Assembly (NCBI RefSeq): GCF_000243135.2
Contig: NC_019903.1
Location: 782,001 to 846,000 of the forward strand
Source of the DNA: Desulfitobacterium dichloroeliminans LMG P-21439
GTDB taxonomy: Bacteria; Bacillota; Desulfitobacteriia; Desulfitobacteriales; Desulfitobacteriaceae
Length of the DNA: 64,000 nt
Direction of reading: 5' to 3'
The translations under genes and the position numbers were made by a program. Shown in pieces: positions 51,345 to 59,905 of this stretch (the first letter of the stretch is position 1; each line of letters begins with the position of its first letter). Under the pieces are notes generated by a model. That model was not told the DNA's origin. It saw only the letters and a list, made by a program, of their open reading frames with translations, and ran no database searches.

Positions 51345-53435
51345 TTGGGGATTCGTGACCGACTGAAGCTCTACTTTGGACAGAATAAGCTCGAAGGATT
51401 TGGCTATTACATAGAAAATCAATATAAAATAAATCCCTTAGTAGAAGCCCTTAAAATCACCTTGATTTATGGGCTTGTGGGTATGCTCTGGATTTTGTTT
51501 TCTGATGAATTGACCAGAAGAGTCGCTGGTAGCATGGAAGTCTATCAACAGATGCAGACCTATAAGGGTGTAGTCTATGTTTTTTTAACCATGCTTTTGC
51601 TGTTTTTCCTGGTATGCATTAGAATGAATCTTTTTAAATTAGCAATCAAAGAGTTAGCTGACAGTATTCATGAGTTAAAGCAACATCGCAATGCCTTGGC
51701 TCTTAGTGAACAAAGGTTGGAGCTGGCGGTTGAAGGATCGGACTGTGGCATTTGGGACTGGAATTTAGAGCATAGTTCCTATTACTTTTCATCGAAGTAT
51801 ACCGAAATCCTCGGCTATGAGGAGGGTGAGGTAAATTTTACTTACGATACATGGCTTTATTTGCTTCATCCTGATGATCGAGATGAGACGCTAAAAGCGG
51901 TAGACGACTATCTCCAATCGGAAAGTGGCTCCCTGGAAATCATGTATCGGATGAAAAGGAAAACTGAGGATTATATCTGGATCCTTTGCAAGGCTAGGGC
52001 AATCCATGATGATCATCACAAGGTTATTCGTCTTGCCGGTACTCATACAGATATAACGAAGAAGAAGCACTTGGAAAATAAGCTTCATGCCTCCGCCTAC
52101 TATGACAGTCTTACGGGATTGCCCAACCGGTTCTTTTTCGAAGAGAAGATAAATGAGCTTATTAGCGGGAGTCGGGCGGAGAAGTTCACCTTGCTCTACA
52201 TGGATATCGATAATTTTAAAAATATCAATGATTCAGTGGGGCATGCTTCAGGAGATCTATTCGTCAAGCATATTGCTGATCGAATCAAGCAGCACACGAG
52301 CCCCGCGGACTTTGTGGCCAGATTAGGTGGAGATGAATTTGCAATCATTTACAAGGGGATGAATCAAGAGGAAGAGATTGCCCGTACAGTACAGGATTTG
52401 CAGAACTCCTTAAGAAAGCCTTGGACTGTGGATAATCATGAATTCTTTATTTCCACGAGTATTGGGATTGCCCTTTATCCGGAGCACGGGGAAGATCTAG
52501 CGTCCATATTTAAAAATGTGGATATTGCCTTGTATCTTGTGAAGAAGAACGGAAAAGATAACTATCGTTTTTACTCCTTAGAGGCGCAAAATAAGATGCT
52601 GGAGCAGATTGCCTTAATTAATTACTTAAGGCATGCCATTGAATATAATGAATTCCAGCTTTTGTATCAGCCGATTATCAATATGACAGATGAGAGCTTA
52701 ATTGGCGCTGAGGCCTTGATTCGCTGGACCCATCCTAAGCTCGGCTTTATTTCTCCGAGTGAGTTCATCCCCTTAGCGGAGGAAACAGGACTCATCTACG
52801 ATATCGAAAAATGGGTCATAAAAACAGCCTTAAGGCAGAAAAAACAGTGGCTGGAGTCACAGTATCCTGATGTAAAAATCTCGATTAATTTATCGGGAAA
52901 GAGCCTTACCTGCGTCGAGATGATTGAGGAAGTTAAAACGCTGCTACGAGAAACAGGGCTCAAAGCGAATAGCGTGCAGTTTGAAGTCACAGAAACATCC
53001 TTGATGAAGGACCTGGAGACCTCCATCAGAAATCTCAAAGAGATAAAGGCCATGGGCATCGAAATCGCTCTGGATGACTTTGGCACGGGCTATTCATCCT
53101 TAACCTACCTCAAAAAGTTGCCCATTGATGTGGTCAAGCTGGATATCGACTTTATTAAAAATATTGCCAGTGCTGAGCATGACTGCCTGATCGTCAAACA
53201 TATGATTCATCTAATTCATGATTTGAATCTGCAGGTCGTGGCGGAGGGGATTGAAGAAGCAGAGCAATCAGCCATCCTCAAAACTATGGCCTGTGATTAT
53301 GGTCAGGGTTATTTCTACAGCCGCCCGGTTCGCAAGGAAGATTTTGAGAAATTGATGAAAAAGGGAGCTATTCAGCATAGCAGTGTAGATGAGGAAACCT
53401 CAGCTTCTACTCGGCAGATTGCCGTGTCATCCTAA
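51345..53435 (+). CDS. Membrane PAS-GGDEF-EAL protein (c-di-GMP turnover)
   Basis: A 696-residue protein. Two hydrophobic helices (about 34-55 and 75-95) anchor it. A PAS/PAC domain follows (about 122-250; WDWNLEHSSYYFSSKYTEILGY), then GGDEF (about 255-420) with LGGDEFAII, and EAL (about 430-685) with GAEALIRW and DDFGTGYSS. Both catalytic motifs are intact, so it could make or break c-di-GMP. The TTG start at 51345 follows GGAG; no better start is seen nearby. It stands alone between terminators. Confidence 0.93.
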   Translation: MGIRDRLKLYFGQNKLEGFGYYIENQYKINPLVEALKITLIYGLVGMLWILFSDELTRRVAGSMEVYQQMQTYKGVVYVFLTMLLLFFLVCIRMNLFKLAIKELADSIHELKQHRNALALSEQRLELAVEGSDCGIWDWNLEHSSYYFSSKYTEILGYEEGEVNFTYDTWLYLLHPDDRDETLKAVDDYLQSESGSLEIMYRMKRKTEDYIWILCKARAIHDDHHKVIRLAGTHTDITKKKHLENKLHASAYYDSLTGLPNRFFFEEKINELISGSRAEKFTLLYMDIDNFKNINDSVGHASGDLFVKHIADRIKQHTSPADFVARLGGDEFAIIYKGMNQEEEIARTVQDLQNSLRKPWTVDNHEFFISTSIGIALYPEHGEDLASIFKNVDIALYLVKKNGKDNYRFYSLEAQNKMLEQIALINYLRHAIEYNEFQLLYQPIINMTDESLIGAEALIRWTHPKLGFISPSEFIPLAEETGLIYDIEKWVIKTALRQKKQWLESQYPDVKISINLSGKSLTCVEMIEEVKTLLRETGLKANSVQFEVTETSLMKDLETSIRNLKEIKAMGIEIALDDFGTGYSSLTYLKKLPIDVVKLDIDFIKNIASAEHDCLIVKHMIHLIHDLNLQVVAEGIEEAEQSAILKTMACDYGQGYFYSRPVRKEDFEKLMKKGAIQHSSVDEETSASTRQIAVSS

Positions 53436-53606: not shown

Positions 53607-55460
53607 TTACAGGCATAACTCAACCTTATACTCCTCGAACCAAAAATCCAGCTGGACCAGCCAAGCCATAAGCTGGGGTGCTCCCATGAGCTGCCCAAAC
53701 CAGGTGTTATTTCCCGGGCTGGCGAGGCGATCAAGCACATCCATGTGTAAGAGCTCCGCCAGCATCCCACTGCCCGAGCTTAAACGCTTTTGGAAAAGAT
53801 GATAGACCAAGGTTGCATAGTGGGGGTCGTGGGTTTTGGGGAAGGGGCTCTTTTTTCGATAAAGGATTTTATCGGGGAGATAATCCTGCATGGCAGCACG
53901 TAGTAGTGATTTTTCTAAACCATTTTTGTATTTGATATCCCAAGGCACGTTATAGACATAGTCGACCAGCCGATGATCAGCAAAGGGAACCCGCACTTCC
54001 AGTCCGGAGGCCATGCTCATGCGGTCCTTTCGTTCCAGCAGCGAGGTCATGAAGTAGTGGATAGAAAGCCAGCTGGCAATCCGCGAGGTGCGCATCGCTT
54101 CTGATTCTCCGGCAACCACCGGACAGGCCGCCACCCTTTGACGATAGAGCTCTGAGGTATATTCAAACCCTGCCTGAGGGCGAACCACCTCAGGTCGAAA
54201 TAAGCTAATGCGGGCATAGGGATCATGAATCCAAGGGAAGAATCCGGAGGTGAGCATCTCAGGTCGATAGAACCAAGGATACCCTCCGAAGACTTCGTCA
54301 GCGCACTCACCGGAGAGGGCGACCGTATGATGTTTCTTGACTTGGCGGCAGTAGTAAAGCAGGGAAGAGTCGATGTCCGCCATGCCGGGATAATCCCGAT
54401 AGCGGACCGCGTCATTTAAAGCGTTGACCAGATCTTCGTTTTGAGCGGTGAGGATCTGATGCTGGGTAGCCAAGTAGTCAGCGAGATAGAGGGCATATTC
54501 ATCATCGCTTTGCGGCTGAAAGAGGGTTTGCTGAAAATGCTCTTTATTCCCGGCGTGTTCAAAGGAGTAGGTAGAGAGCTGTGCACCTTTTTGCTGATAG
54601 CTTTGGGCGGCCACTGCTGTAATAACTGAGGAATCCAGTCCTCCCGAGAGAAAGGTGCAGAGGGGGACATCGGCGACCAGCTGACGTTGGATGGCATCTA
54701 CTAGAAGCTCGCGGGTGGTGGCGACGATGGTGTCCTCCCTCTCCCTGTTTTCGTAGGCCGCCAAGGACCAGTACTTGGTGGTTTGCAAACCCTGTGGCCC
54801 GCCTGCAGAGTTCGGGGAGAAGAACGCATGGGAGGCAGGAGGAAGCTCGAAGATATTTTTGAAAAGAGCGGTGCCTTCTTCTTTGACGGGCATCATATAG
54901 AGCAGCTGCCATAAGCCTTCGTAACCCAGCTGAGCCTTTACATGGGGATGCTGAAGGATTGCCTTAAGCTCCGAAGCAAAGAGTAGGGCGCCGTCCACAA
55001 AAGTATAGAAGAAGGGCTTGACGCCGAAGCGGTCCCGGGCAAGATAGGCTCGGCCTTGTCTGGAGTCATAAACAACGAAGGCATAAATGCCGTTGAACTT
55101 GGCGGAGCATTGCTCACCCCAAATGATGTAGCTGTACAGCACCACTTCCGTATCGCAATGGGTTTGAAACTTGACACCATAACCGCGTAGCTCTTGACGT
55201 AGATCTTCAGTGTTATAGAGCTCGCCGTTGTAGACGATGGTATATTCAAACCCTTCGTGGCTGGTCGTCATGGGCTGTCTGCCCTTTTCAAGGTCAATGA
55301 CGGCTAACCGATTATGTTGAAAAGCAAAATGCTCCCTATGAGAAAGCCCATTTTGATCCGGCCCCCGATGGGCTAGGGTTTTCCCTGCTTGGTTAAGATA
55401 TTGAATATCTGGGGGTAATAGCTTTCGCGAAAAACTTATTAAACCGAGAATGGAGCACAT
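53607..55460 (-). CDS. asnB: Asparagine synthetase (glutamine-hydrolysing)
   Basis: A 617-residue enzyme. The N-terminal nucleophile Cys2 in MCSILGLI heads the glutaminase domain (about 1-200; HRGPDQNG, YNGELYN). The synthetase domain has the PP-loop FLSGGLDSSVITA and LSGECADEVFGGYPW. It makes asparagine from aspartate, glutamine and ATP. ATG at 55460 is chosen because Cys must be residue 2; the two-codon TTG extension would bury it. GAGGTG precedes the start. The start overlaps the stop of a small upstream gene as TGATG. The divergent glnA lies beyond. Confidence 0.94.
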   Translation of the reverse strand: MCSILGLISFSRKLLPPDIQYLNQAGKTLAHRGPDQNGLSHREHFAFQHNRLAVIDLEKGRQPMTTSHEGFEYTIVYNGELYNTEDLRQELRGYGVKFQTHCDTEVVLYSYIIWGEQCSAKFNGIYAFVVYDSRQGRAYLARDRFGVKPFFYTFVDGALLFASELKAILQHPHVKAQLGYEGLWQLLYMMPVKEEGTALFKNIFELPPASHAFFSPNSAGGPQGLQTTKYWSLAAYENREREDTIVATTRELLVDAIQRQLVADVPLCTFLSGGLDSSVITAVAAQSYQQKGAQLSTYSFEHAGNKEHFQQTLFQPQSDDEYALYLADYLATQHQILTAQNEDLVNALNDAVRYRDYPGMADIDSSLLYYCRQVKKHHTVALSGECADEVFGGYPWFYRPEMLTSGFFPWIHDPYARISLFRPEVVRPQAGFEYTSELYRQRVAACPVVAGESEAMRTSRIASWLSIHYFMTSLLERKDRMSMASGLEVRVPFADHRLVDYVYNVPWDIKYKNGLEKSLLRAAMQDYLPDKILYRKKSPFPKTHDPHYATLVYHLFQKRLSSGSGMLAELLHMDVLDRLASPGNNTWFGQLMGAPQLMAWLVQLDFWFEEYKVELCL

Positions 55461-55651
55461 CAGCAAAACACCTCGCTACCGAAAAATGACAAAGGAGCAC
55501 CCGTCTGAGTACTCCTTTGTCTCTGTTCAATATATGCGAGGGCTCGAGTAGGGTGCCAGTCTTCACGAATGAATACAGCATCCATGACGTTCTGATATTG
55601 ACAGAGGACTTGCGCAAAGTATAAGATGAACCGTAGGGTTTCATTTTTCAT
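55460..55651 (-). CDS. Small ORF coupled to asnB, possible leader peptide
   Basis: A 63-residue frame (starting MKNETLRFILYFAQVLCQYQ) whose TGA overlaps the asnB ATG as TGATG, suggesting translational coupling. A -10 TATAAT lies on the minus strand at 55669-55664, giving a leader of only a few bases. Its 3' third contains a perfect 10-bp hairpin followed by ATTTTTC. I do not recognise the protein. It could be a real small protein or a leader used in attenuation. Confidence 0.6.
   Translation of the reverse strand: MKNETLRFILYFAQVLCQYQNVMDAVFIREDWHPTRALAYIEQRQRSTQTGAPLSFFGSEVFC
55481..55521 (-). promoter_or_regulatory. Terminator-like hairpin inside the asnB leader
   Basis: On the minus strand GACAAAGGAG (55521-55512) pairs perfectly with CTCCTTTGTC (55497-55488), with a 14-base loop, followed by ATTTTTC (55487-55481). 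It lies about 25 bases before the asnB start. It may act as an attenuator; the alternative structure is not resolved. Confidence 0.6.
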
Positions 55652-55694
55652 GCAAGGAACAGTATTATAAGATTAGGAATAGAACAAAGGCGTT

Positions 55695-55733
55695 CTAAGG
55701 ACCCTAATAGGGAACTTAGTGCGCCCTTTTTTT
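55695..55733 (+). promoter_or_regulatory. Hairpin in the glnA leader region
   Basis: CTAAG-GA-CCCT-AAT-AGGG-AA-CTTAG (55695-55719) is a symmetric interrupted stem. A T7 run at 55727-55733 lies seven bases beyond it. It could be an attenuator read by the ANTAR protein or a protein operator; the hexanucleotide loop typical of ANTAR targets is not seen. Confidence 0.45.
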
Positions 55734-55766
55734 AACCCTTTTGCCCATTAGAAAGGAGTGTCGTTG

Positions 55767-57095
55767 ATGCGATTTAGCAAAGAAGAGTGCCTGAAATTTG
55801 TCCAAGAGAATGATGTCCGTTTTATTCGTCTGCAGTTTACCGATATTTTTGGTCGGATGAAAAACATCGCCATCACGGATAACCAGCTTCCCCAAGCTCT
55901 CGAGCAGGGAGTGATGTTTGATGGTTCGGCTGTGCCGGGATTTGCAGGAGTTGAGACCTCCGATATGCTATTGCTCCCCGACCCCAGTACCTTTGCCTTA
56001 ATTCCTTGGCGACCGCAACAGGGGAAAGTAGCAAGGATCATCTGTGATGTCAAGAATCATGATGGTTCCCAATTCGCAGGGGATCCCCGCTATATTCTGA
56101 AGCGAACTCTGCAGAAGGCCCAGGACAAGGGTTATGTTTTCCAGGTGGGCCCCGAGTGCGAATTCTTTTTATTCCATACTGATGATGTAGGACAACCGAC
56201 CACCACGACCCACGACAGCGCCGGCTATTGTGATTTGGCTCCCATCGACCAAGGTGAAAACACCCGACGGGAGATTTGTCTGGTCCTAGAAGAGATGGGT
56301 TTTGAGATTGAGACCTCCCATCATGAATCCGCCGCCGGACAGCATGAGATCGACTTCAAATATACGGATGCCCTGACGGCAGCCGACAATATTATGACCT
56401 TCAAATATGTAGTCAAAATCATTGCCCAACGCAATGGCCTCCATGCGACTTTTATGCCCAAGCCACTCCAAGGGGTTAATGGGTCAGGCATGCATATCAA
56501 CATGTCTCTAGCCAAAGAAGGGGTGAATATCTTTAACCACCCTGAGGCTCAGGGGGAACTCTCGGCAACGGCAAAGCAATTCATCGCGGGATTATTAGAG
56601 CATATCAAAGGGATTACGGCCATCGCTAATCCTTTAGTCAACTCCTACAAACGCTTAGTTGCGGGCTATGAAGCACCGGTTCATATCGCTTGGTCACCCA
56701 TGAACCGCAGTCCCTTGTTGCGTGTCCCTTCCCCACGGGGTGAGGGAGCTCGTCTTGAGCTACGTAGCCCCGATCCCAGCTGTAATCCGTATTTGACTTT
56801 GGCTTTGCTTTTAGAGGCTGGGCTCGAGGGATTAAACCGCGGCCTTCAGGTGGCTGAACCGGTCAATATTAACATCTATAATCTGACTTCCGAGGAGGAA
56901 AAATCCTTAAAGTTGGATCGGTTGCCCTCCAATCTCTTAATCGCTCTTGAAGAAATGAAGAAGGATCCCTTGATCCATTCTACTATTGGCGAGCATATTT
57001 TTACGAAGTATATCACAGCCAAGACTCAAGAGTGGCGGGACTATGACACCACGGTTCATCAGTGGGAGATTGATAACTATCTAAAAATCTATTGA
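55767..57095 (+). CDS. glnA: Glutamine synthetase type I
   Basis: A 442-residue enzyme of the shorter GSI-alpha kind. Motifs: DIFGRMKNIAI near the start, FDGSAVPGFAGVETSDM, GPECEFFLF, the ATP/metal region ESAAGQHEIDFKYTDAL, FMPKPLQGVNGSGMHINMSL and NRSPLLRVP. It makes glutamine from glutamate, ammonia and ATP. No adenylylation-type insertion is apparent, so control is more likely by feedback and transcription. The ATG at 55767 follows GAAAGGAG by 8 bases. An ANTAR regulator gene follows. Confidence 0.96.
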   Translation: MRFSKEECLKFVQENDVRFIRLQFTDIFGRMKNIAITDNQLPQALEQGVMFDGSAVPGFAGVETSDMLLLPDPSTFALIPWRPQQGKVARIICDVKNHDGSQFAGDPRYILKRTLQKAQDKGYVFQVGPECEFFLFHTDDVGQPTTTTHDSAGYCDLAPIDQGENTRREICLVLEEMGFEIETSHHESAAGQHEIDFKYTDALTAADNIMTFKYVVKIIAQRNGLHATFMPKPLQGVNGSGMHINMSLAKEGVNIFNHPEAQGELSATAKQFIAGLLEHIKGITAIANPLVNSYKRLVAGYEAPVHIAWSPMNRSPLLRVPSPRGEGARLELRSPDPSCNPYLTLALLLEAGLEGLNRGLQVAEPVNINIYNLTSEEEKSLKLDRLPSNLLIALEEMKKDPLIHSTIGEHIFTKYITAKTQEWRDYDTTVHQWEIDNYLKIY

Positions 57096-57132: not shown

Positions 57133-57705
57133 ATGAGCGCAGGGAATGTCCTCATCGTCTGTGGAAAATCTGAAGTAGCCGGCAGTATGGAAAGCACACT
57201 GATTAAGGAAGGGTGTTATCCGGTAAGCTGCGCTCATTCGGCCAACGAGGCACGGCGGCAGTTTATTAACACCCAGCCGGATTTAATTATCATCAGTGCC
57301 CCACTTCCTGACGAACAAGGGATCGATCTCGTCCTCGATATCCGCGAGAAAACAGAGGCGGGAATTATCGTCATGGCCCGACCGGACCAAATCGCCATTA
57401 TGCAGGGAGCCCTCGAATCCACCGGGGCCATGATCCTCCCGAAGCCCATCAATCGCCTCACCCTAACCCAAAGCGCCCGCTTTGCATTATCCGTCAGGAA
57501 TTCTCTGTTCGAGTTAAAGAACGAGCGGGATAGCCTAAAGAAACGCATGGATGAACGGAAGCTTGTTGAAAAGGCTAAATGGCTGCTTGTAGAGAAGGCG
57601 AATATGAGCGAACCCGAAGCGTTCCGCACTATTCAAAAGCAAGCTATGGATCTGCGGCTCCCGCAGCTTCAGGTAGCGGAAGTGATTATCAAGGAATATG
57701 AGTAG
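57133..57705 (+). CDS. ANTAR-domain response regulator downstream of glnA
   Basis: A 190-residue protein. The N-terminal receiver-like domain (about 1-120; VLIVCGKSEVAGSMES) is degenerate in places. A short coiled coil (about 120-140) and an ANTAR RNA-binding domain follow (VEKAKWLLVEKANMSEPEAFRTIQKQAMDLRLPQLQVAEVII). ANTAR proteins bind hairpins in nascent RNA and prevent termination; members next to glnA are known in Clostridia. Here the glnA leader hairpin is a possible target. It is 37 bases after glnA and followed by a terminator. Confidence 0.93.
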   Translation: MSAGNVLIVCGKSEVAGSMESTLIKEGCYPVSCAHSANEARRQFINTQPDLIIISAPLPDEQGIDLVLDIREKTEAGIIVMARPDQIAIMQGALESTGAMILPKPINRLTLTQSARFALSVRNSLFELKNERDSLKKRMDERKLVEKAKWLLVEKANMSEPEAFRTIQKQAMDLRLPQLQVAEVIIKEYE

Positions 57706-58533: not shown

Positions 58534-58582
58534 TTGTTATTTTAGACTGGTTGGCTTATACTATTTATAAGGGGTGATGAAA

Positions 58583-58828
58583 ATGCCTAATATTAAACCC
58601 ATATCAGATTTGAGAAATTACTCAGAAGTATTAAAAGAGGTATCCTACAACAATCCGGTATACTTGACCAGAAATGGAAGAGGTGAATATGCCATTATTA
58701 GAGTAGAAGAACTTGATAAGCTCCGCGCAATGGTAAGGCTAATGGCACAGCTTGAAGAAGGGGAAAAATCAGCTAGGGAAAAAGGATGGCTTTCTACTGA
58801 TGAGGTAGAGGCTTCATTAGGGCTATAG
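58583..58828 (+). CDS. Phd/YefM-family antitoxin
   Basis: An 81-residue antitoxin. The N-terminal DNA-binding part has IKPISDLRNYSEVLKEVSYNNPVYLTRNGRGEYAII (Phd/YefM fold), and the C-terminal tail (EEGEKSAREKGWLSTDEVEASLGL) would neutralise the toxin encoded 1 base downstream. The start at 58583 follows AAGGGGTGATG. It should repress its own operon. Confidence 0.92.
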   Translation: MPNIKPISDLRNYSEVLKEVSYNNPVYLTRNGRGEYAIIRVEELDKLRAMVRLMAQLEEGEKSAREKGWLSTDEVEASLGL

Positions 58829-58829
58829 T

Positions 58830-59168
58830 ATGGGAAAAGTCGAATATTCGCCGAAAGCACAGGAGGATCTGTGGAAAATAAGGGCATATATTATTGAAAA
58901 CTTTGGAATTGATACAGCCCAAAAGGCTCTTGTTAAAATCACTGCTAGTATTAATAGACTAGGGGAATACCCCTTATTAGGGGTGTCGTTGAGTAAAATG
59001 TTTGATGTTTCAACAGACTATATGTATCTCTTCTGTGGGAAGAACTATGTCTTTTATAGAATTGAAGGTAATATAGTAAAGGTCGTTCGAGTTCTAAATG
59101 AGCAGCAGGATTTTTTGCGGGTACTTTTTGAAATTTATATAGATTCTGATGAAGATGAAGATCAATAA
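58830..59168 (+). CDS. RelE/ParE-family toxin
   Basis: A 112-residue toxin: VEYSPKAQEDLWKIRAYIIENFG at the start, YPLLGVSLSKMF in the centre, and NYVFYRIEGNIVKVVRVLNEQQDFLRVLF, the usual C-terminal core. The last 10 residues are acidic. It could inhibit translation (RelE-like) or gyrase (ParE-like); I cannot distinguish. It directly follows the antitoxin gene and precedes a terminator. Confidence 0.92.
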   Translation: MGKVEYSPKAQEDLWKIRAYIIENFGIDTAQKALVKITASINRLGEYPLLGVSLSKMFDVSTDYMYLFCGKNYVFYRIEGNIVKVVRVLNEQQDFLRVLFEIYIDSDEDEDQ

Positions 59169-59353: not shown

Positions 59354-59905
59354 CTACCCTATAGGATTTTTGACTGAACGCTTGACTACCTGATTGCCGA
59401 CCCAGGCGGCAATACCTCCTTTAGCCAGATCGCCGAAGATAAAGGGAAGGAAGCCAGTCGAGACGATGAGGGCCACAGTGGTAGGCTTATCCAAAACAAA
59501 GTGCATGACGAAGTAGAAGTAACTGAGGCCAACGATATATAAGGCACCAATCCCGGCGATGACCGCTAGGATTGCGGAGAGGAAGCTTTTACGGTTGTAA
59601 AGCTTACCGACCACATAGGCGGCGGCAATATCCCCTAAAAGATAACCAAAGGATGGTTTTAGAACATAGCCGATTCCCCCAAAGGGAGCGCTGGCGAAAA
59701 CAGGTAAACCAAGCAAACCCAAAAATACATAGACCGTGACTGCCAGGCTACCATACTTTGGTCCCAGAATGAGGCCGGTCAGCATAATGAACAGAGGGAG
59801 CAAACTAAAGGGAATCAAAGCTGCTGAAGCCCAACGGGCTAGCATTCCAGCTAAGCAAAGCAGGGCAGCCATGGCAGCAGTTTTAGCAAGGTATCGAGTA
59901 TCCAT
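59354..59905 (-). CDS. bioY: BioY biotin transporter S-component
   Basis: A 183-residue membrane protein with six hydrophobic segments. LPLFIMLTGLILGPKYGSLAVTVYVFLGLLGLPVFA and GGIGYVLKPSFGYLLG are the BioY signatures. It binds biotin in the membrane and works with EcfA/EcfT. A BirA operator lies 85-115 bases before its start, between it and the divergent EcfAA-EcfT genes. The start has AAAGGATG. Confidence 0.94.
   Translation of the reverse strand: MDTRYLAKTAAMAALLCLAGMLARWASAALIPFSLLPLFIMLTGLILGPKYGSLAVTVYVFLGLLGLPVFASAPFGGIGYVLKPSFGYLLGDIAAAYVVGKLYNRKSFLSAILAVIAGIGALYIVGLSYFYFVMHFVLDKPTTVALIVSTGFLPFIFGDLAKGGIAAWVGNQVVKRSVKNPIG

Follow-up and report, generated by a model that had tools for sequence, protein, structure and literature searches.

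The window analysed here is a stretch of 64,000 nucleotides from the genome of Desulfitobacterium dichloroeliminans LMG P-21439 (contig NC_019903.1, positions 782,001–846,000). The asnB gene occupies positions 53,607–55,460 of the minus strand of the window, begins with an ATG at 55,460, and encodes a glutamine-hydrolysing asparagine synthase, as indicated by matches to the Pfam families Asn_synthase and GATase_7 and to NCBIfam TIGR01536 above its cut-off. It is divergent from glnA, which encodes a type I glutamine synthetase (55,767–57,095, plus strand; Pfam, and TIGR00653 above cut-off). The next gene after glnA encodes a protein with receiver and ANTAR domains (57,133–57,705, plus strand; Pfam Response_reg and ANTAR), which we propose to be the antiterminator of both glnA and asnB. 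The subject of this report is the leader of asnB, in which a terminator hairpin overlaps a smaller hairpin that may be the target of this regulator.

A preliminary description of the locus had noted a perfect 10-base-pair stem (GACAAAGGAG/CTCCTTTGTC) followed by ATTTTTC upstream of asnB. The stem is present and extends to a hairpin of 15 pairs with a 4-nucleotide loop (55,488–55,521, minus strand), followed by ATTTTT (55,482–55,487, minus strand) as the tail of a predicted intrinsic terminator. The hairpin has a folding energy of −25.1 kcal/mol (z = −7.5), and none of 200 dinucleotide shuffles is equally stable. In a sample of 45 genomes from the family, 39 contain asnB homologues (E up to 1e-60), which comprise the gene from the window, four orthologues with 69–78% identity (in genomes G003, G004, G041, and G031), and 34 genes with 42–46% identity. 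The hairpin is kept before all four of the other orthologous asnB genes of the family. The five leaders have terminator folds of −21 to −26 kcal/mol, and the ATTTT of the tail is invariant among them. In the alignment of the hairpins 98.7% of cells pair, compared with 44–57% for slid structures, and two pairs are changed on both sides in G041. A covariance model built from these five leaders and run with stricter filters recovers the five asnB sites with E ≤ 2.0e-14; the next matches are the same sites on the opposite strand, followed by one with E = 3.4e-4. The Shine–Dalgarno-like sequence of asnB, GAGGTG (55,469–55,474, minus strand), lies outside both the terminator hairpin and the alternative structure described below. 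The word is GAGGTG in four of the five aligned leaders and GGGGTG in the remaining one.

The alternative structure is a hairpin with a six-nucleotide loop, GAGAC[AAAGGA]GUaCUC, with one bulged A (55,507–55,523, minus strand), in which loop positions 1 and 4 are A and G; we propose it as an ANTAR-binding site. The hexaloop and its 3′ arm sit inside the 5′ arm of the terminator, and therefore the two structures are mutually exclusive. Loop positions 1–4 (A1, A2, A3, G4) and the letters of the stem are invariant in all five asnB leaders. The same holds for the GA just outside the terminator helix, which is paired in the hexaloop hairpin; the four columns upstream of it vary. Loop positions 5 and 6 differ in G041, and their partners in the terminator are changed too, so that the terminator is kept. 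The ACAAAGGNGTNCTNNG pattern occurs exactly twice in the genome of D. dichloroeliminans, in the leaders of asnB and glnA. The window contains 241 AAAGG words, four of which can form a hexaloop stem of at least five pairs with one bulge allowed, and two of these four are in the asnB and glnA leaders. The asnB hexaloop was not listed in a scan for unbulged stems because of its bulge.

The glnA leader contains the hexaloop hairpin UAGAAC[AAAGGC]GUUCUA (55,680–55,697, plus strand), and G003, G004, and G041 carry the identical 18-mer before glnA. The hairpin is overlapped by a terminator found by pattern search, GGCGUUCUAAG...CUUAGUGCGCC followed by seven T (55,689–55,733, plus strand), with a fold of z = −3.6 and one of 200 shuffles as stable. 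A predicted glnA promoter, TTGACA-18-TAAGAT or alternatively TTGACA-16-TATAAG, is located at 55,598–55,627 (plus strand), and the TTGACA with a −10 element is kept in G003, G004, and G041. The promoter lies within a small open reading frame (ORF) on the asnB strand, so that the two divergent transcription units may overlap in their first bases.

No ANTAR match other than the regulator gene following glnA is present in the genome of 3.62 Mb. Six of the eight residues with which EutV contacts RNA are identical in its ANTAR domain, and the two others are replaced (Tyr164 by Phe and Arg168 by Gln), according to our own mapping on the alignment, with chain numbering minus 2. The position of the phospho-acceptor, aligned to EutV (Asp54) and to the chain of 1s8n, is occupied by Ser55. 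In the five proteins compared, the residue at this position is Ser in three and Asn in two, and Asp in none of them. A phosphate is therefore unlikely to be the nitrogen signal.

Hexaloop elements of this type are shared with the leaders of other nitrogen genes in the family. An AAAGGC hexaloop with a U-tract was searched for in the 45 genomes. Of the 18 that have a close homologue of the ANTAR protein (E < 1e-80), 15 contain hairpin-forming sites, compared with 3 of the 27 without one (Fisher p = 1.4e-6, which is only a guide because the genomes are related). Four of these 27 genomes (G009, G020, G036, and G037) have a more distant match to the regulator. The three sites are a clear one before glnN in G040, an incomplete genome (−22.3 kcal/mol), and weaker ones in G009 (−14.9 kcal/mol) and G016 (−9.3 kcal/mol). 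The three genomes that have the ANTAR homologue and lack a counted site are G029 and G031, which are incomplete, and G041, in which the site before gltB pairs but failed the folding rule. In the genome of D. dichloroeliminans, a hexaloop terminator with the hairpin GAGC[AAAGGC]GCUC precedes gltB, identified by Pfam (L077:417–474, equivalent to G000:C1:717516–717573). Hexaloop terminators also occur before gltB in G003, G012, and G041, where the gene was identified by its like start, before glnN, which encodes a type III glutamine synthetase, in G003 and G040, and before the ammonium transporter gene amtB in G028. A glnN site in G004 was assigned by its near-identity to that of G003, with the downstream gene unread. 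Among 16 other loci (L019–L034, one ending at a contig end), seven glnA upstream regions contain GAGC or GAAGC[AAAGGC] hairpins; these were located by that word, and the constancy of their loops results from how they were chosen. Separately, a GUAC..GUAC or GUACUC..GAGUAC helix is present near the tips of the terminators of asnB (55,495–55,512), gltB, glnN, amtB, and glnA of genus g4. By our reading, it occurs in the leaders of L054, L056, L078, L080, and L083, and not in every leader.

A promoter of asnB may be represented by the −10-like TATATT at 55,529–55,534 (minus strand), located 5 nucleotides upstream of the hexaloop stem and lacking a consensus −35 element. As we read the five asnB leaders, a −10-like element lies 5–6 nucleotides from the stem in each: TATATT in three, TATAGT in one, and TATCGT in one. 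Only in the leader of G031 does a promoter scan give a weak pair at the corresponding place, matching 8 of 12 positions, a score reached by 58% of shuffles. A sigma-54 promoter was considered for asnB and rejected: TGGCAC is present upstream, but by our reading no consistent second element is found across the five leaders. A promoter scan of 28 leaders gave six with strong promoters, defined as at least 10 of 12 matches. In three of the six (glnA of G004, and two leaders, of asnA and of the glutamate synthase cluster, in Niameybacter massiliensis, described below), the predicted start is at most 5 nucleotides from the hexaloop stem, which leaves no space for a first hairpin. The start lies 46–49 nucleotides upstream in the remaining leaders (glnA of D. 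dichloroeliminans, G003, and G041), with space for another hairpin. When the six leaders were shuffled, an equally strong promoter that near to the stem was obtained in 0.7%.

Outside the family, 80 asnB loci, taken with at most 4 kb of flanking sequence and often less, contained no ANTAR match and one partial glutamine synthetase match (L100). The upstream regions of 77 of the 80 genes were suitable for a general test for hexaloop terminators; the three others were excluded because the match did not begin at residue 1–2 or there were fewer than 150 nucleotides upstream. The test was positive in 3 of 77 regions, compared with 6 of 385 shuffles, which is no clear enrichment. In one of the 77 regions, that of Niameybacter massiliensis (L102), AAGAC[AAAGGC]GUCUU with a terminator is located 80 nucleotides before asnB. 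The same organism has AUGAAC[AAAGGC]GUUCAU before a cluster of glutamate synthase, glnA, and ANTAR genes, and CAGC[AAAGGC]GCUG before asnA. In Ruminiclostridium hungatei, an ANTAR gene accompanies glnA, and glnN is preceded by AGUGAAAC[AAAGGC]GUUUCACU, on the contig that also carries asnB.

Taken together, the sequences make it likely that transcription of asnB is attenuated in its leader under ANTAR control, by the nitrogen regulator linked to glnA. By default, the nascent RNA would fold into the 15-pair terminator (55,521–55,488, minus strand), and transcription would stop in the ATTTTT before the ribosome-binding site of asnB. When active, the regulator would bind the AAAGGA hexaloop as the loop emerges and would hold the small hairpin. 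Because this hairpin occupies the 5′ arm of the terminator, the terminator could not form, and RNA polymerase would proceed into asnB. The same regulator would antiterminate its own glnA operon through the UAGAAC[AAAGGC]GUUCUA hairpin, and gltB elsewhere in the genome. The synthesis of glutamine, glutamate, and asparagine would thereby be set together. The earlier suggestion that asnB is attenuated, in connection with the divergent glnA, is backed by the sequences.

Several observations weigh against this interpretation. Antitermination by EutV is considered to require a dual hexaloop (PMC8934654), and the asnB leaders show one; a second A1/G4 hexaloop with at least three pairs is present in none of the five. 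The hexaloop hairpin alone has a minimum free energy of −1.4 kcal/mol, and 62 of 200 shuffles are as stable. Sequences of the form AAAGGNG..CNCCUUU, in which an A-run pairs with the U-run, arise in ordinary terminators too, and several cases were found. The U-tract of the asnB terminator is short, with 4–6 U, the helix of G031 has one mismatch, and the covariation is not significant, since a column-shuffle control reaches the same in 112 of 500 cases. The scans for promoters in the window did not pick up the TATATT before the hexaloop stem or identify another asnB promoter. The correlation between hexaloop sites and the ANTAR homologue uses related genomes and a folding rule that was fixed after the matches were known. 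The asnB site of Niameybacter is, on its own, within chance (1 of 77 regions, compared with 18 of 7700 shuffles with such a stem), and the asnA site could be an ordinary terminator.

As a rival explanation, the hairpin could be a plain conserved terminator or mRNA hairpin that allows a fixed partial read-through with no regulator, the resemblance to a hexaloop being a by-product of the terminator sequence. A strong hairpin requires no protein, pairing between AAAGG and CCUUU is common in terminators, and the hexaloop stem is weak. However, such a terminator does not account for the invariant GA, which is outside its helix, pairs in the hexaloop form, and is preceded by four variable columns, or for the recurrence of the same 16-mer pattern in the glnA leader only, beside the ANTAR gene; we consider this explanation fairly unlikely. 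T-box control of asnB genes is known in other Firmicutes, and the leader might accordingly sense a tRNA or a metabolite. However, no Rfam family reaches its gathering score in the whole window, and even at E up to 10 the region 55,380–55,780 gives only three unrelated families at chance level. The conserved part, of about 45 nucleotides, is below the size of a T-box, and a T-box or riboswitch is scarcely credible here. A search of ten of the 80 asnB loci from outside the family with Rfam found one tRNA and nothing else. The hairpin might instead be an element of RNA processing or stability, or act on the translation of asnB rather than on its transcription. The short U-tract would suit such a role, as would the position of some predicted ANTAR sites near ribosome-binding sites, reported in Ramesh 2012 (PMC3369931). 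Since GAGGTG (55,474–55,469) is outside both the hairpin and the hexaloop form, we regard this role as very improbable.

The preliminary description had favoured attenuation coupled to translation. A ribosome translating a 63-codon ORF (55,460–55,651, minus strand) would open the hairpin, and asnB would respond to the supply of amino acids or tRNA. The ORF is open as described, it contains the hairpin, and its TGA (55,462–55,460) shares TGATG with the ATG of asnB (55,460–55,458), an arrangement also present in G003. It has six Gln codons, three of which (43, 45, and 49) are at the hairpin; these would suit a sensor of glutamine tRNA and are the sole point in favour of a leader peptide. However, stops interrupt the frame that would end at asnB in G003, G004, G041, and G031, and the start region of the ORF is missing in G004. 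Thus, the comparison with relatives that had been suggested as a check finds the hairpin in five of five leaders and the ORF in none of the four relatives. The frames that cover the hairpin in the relatives differ from the ORF in start, length, and end, and none corresponds to it. G003 has no ORF with a start codon across the hairpin, G004 has only a TTG frame that continues into asnB, in G041 two frames beginning with ATG stop at −22 (47 codons) and −8 (36 codons), and in G031 a 28-codon frame beginning with TTG stops at −13. By our reading, conservation of the DNA keeps the codons of the hairpin readable in G003, G004, and G031, but the frames concerned do not extend through the remainder of the ORF. 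The best match of the ORF outside its own genome is in G003 (E 1.6e-5, 29 amino acids); it has a TGA inside and sits in the orthologous leader, and thus reflects DNA homology. The ORF has no protein family match in Pfam and NCBIfam searches, and tblastn against plasmids gave no match. No Shine–Dalgarno-like sequence was seen by us before its ATG, where the letters are CTGTTCCTTGC. On the minus strand of the intergenic stretch, ORFs of at least 63 codons arise in 78 of 1000 dinucleotide shuffles, so that its length is not far beyond chance. A promoter leaving almost no 5′ leader had also been proposed for it. The TATAAT is there (55,669–55,664, minus strand), but a consensus scan finds no −35/−10 pair, and G004 lacks that stretch yet has the hairpin. 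The ORF is therefore rejected as a gene or leader peptide: its frame and its start are lost, its length is near chance, and it matches no family. It is probably accidental. Its absence from the relatives, together with the shuffles, makes attenuation by its translation unlikely, and we give this mechanism very little credence. A trans-acting ANTAR antiterminator accounts for the conserved letters of the loop, and a ribosome-coupled attenuator does not.

The proposed ANTAR control of asnB can be compared with known systems. Ramesh 2012 (PMC3369931) defines an ANTAR target by a pair of hexaloop hairpins, both with A1 and G4, of which the second overlaps a terminator; nitrogen genes, including those for glutamate and glutamine synthases, are listed there. 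One hexaloop is the minimal binding site, and both must be contacted to prevent termination, according to PMC8934654. The eut leaders controlled by EutV/EutW in Enterococcus faecalis resemble the asnB leader in their A1/G4 hexaloops with AC/GU closing pairs, in the hairpin over the 5′ base of an intrinsic terminator, and in the receiver-ANTAR regulator (PMC3369931, PMC8934654). By contrast, no second (recruitment) hexaloop is seen in the asnB leaders; the criterion of a P1 and a P2 hairpin 5–12 nucleotides apart identifies none of the five. The regulators also differ, with a Ser in the window's protein in place of the Asp54 phospho-acceptor of EutV, and the target in the window is an asparagine synthase. 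The sensor domains of NasR and AmiR differ from that of the regulator in the window. The nasF and amiE leaders that these proteins control share the loop letters and the overlap with a terminator; however, the genes are different, and dual hairpins are reported, according to PMC3369931. Closer in gene content are the ANTAR nitrogen regulons predicted in Desulfotomaculum reducens and D. acetoxidans, with terminator leaders before nitrogen genes including that for glutamate synthase; unlike the leaders of the window, they were found with a dual-hairpin model (PMC3369931). Neither asnB nor “asparagine” occurs in the main text of Ramesh 2012 (PMC3369931), whose supplementary tables may hold asnB hits. 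Among the matches listed, no published description of this asnB leader was recognized by title or by the start of the abstract. With its single hexaloop and atypical receiver, the asnB leader system is probably a variant of ANTAR antitermination.

The dual form may exist in some leaders of the wider set. In six of the seven glnA upstream regions from genus g4, UUUA[AGUGUA]UAAA (with UUA/UAA in one) is located about 22–27 nucleotides before the main stem, and the glt leader of G041 has UUUAG[AAUGAA]CUAAA as a candidate second hexaloop. Overall, a non-overlapping upstream candidate with at least three pairs is present in 4 of 25 leaders, which is not above the approximately 0.7 candidates per 170-nucleotide leader given by shuffles.

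Other genes in this part of the window include one for a PAS-GGDEF-EAL protein, a probable cyclic-di-GMP enzyme, which is downstream of asnB and faces it (51,345–53,435). Adjacent genes for a Phd/YefM-type antitoxin and a ParE-type toxin form a probable toxin–antitoxin pair (58,574–59,168), and a gene for a BioY biotin transporter is located at 59,354–59,905.

It is possible, and we suggest this tentatively, that a nitrogen regulon of Clostridia, comprising glnA, gltB, glnN, amtB, asnB, and asnA, is controlled by single-hexaloop ANTAR antitermination through a receiver-ANTAR protein that is not phosphorylatable at the canonical position, with the hexaloop in some leaders directly at the 5′ end of the transcript. 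If so, the single hexaloop and the lack of the usual phosphorylation site imply that the system works without the recruitment hairpin demanded by the current EutV model and that its switch is not a histidine kinase, which raises the question of how a receiver without a phosphorylation site senses nitrogen. Should one hexaloop indeed suffice, two steps of ANTAR antitermination for which a pair of hairpins is currently considered necessary would be separated. Control of asnB by the glnA-linked regulator would extend the ANTAR nitrogen regulon to asparagine synthesis, and it would explain the back-to-back placement of asnB with glnA and the regulator gene.

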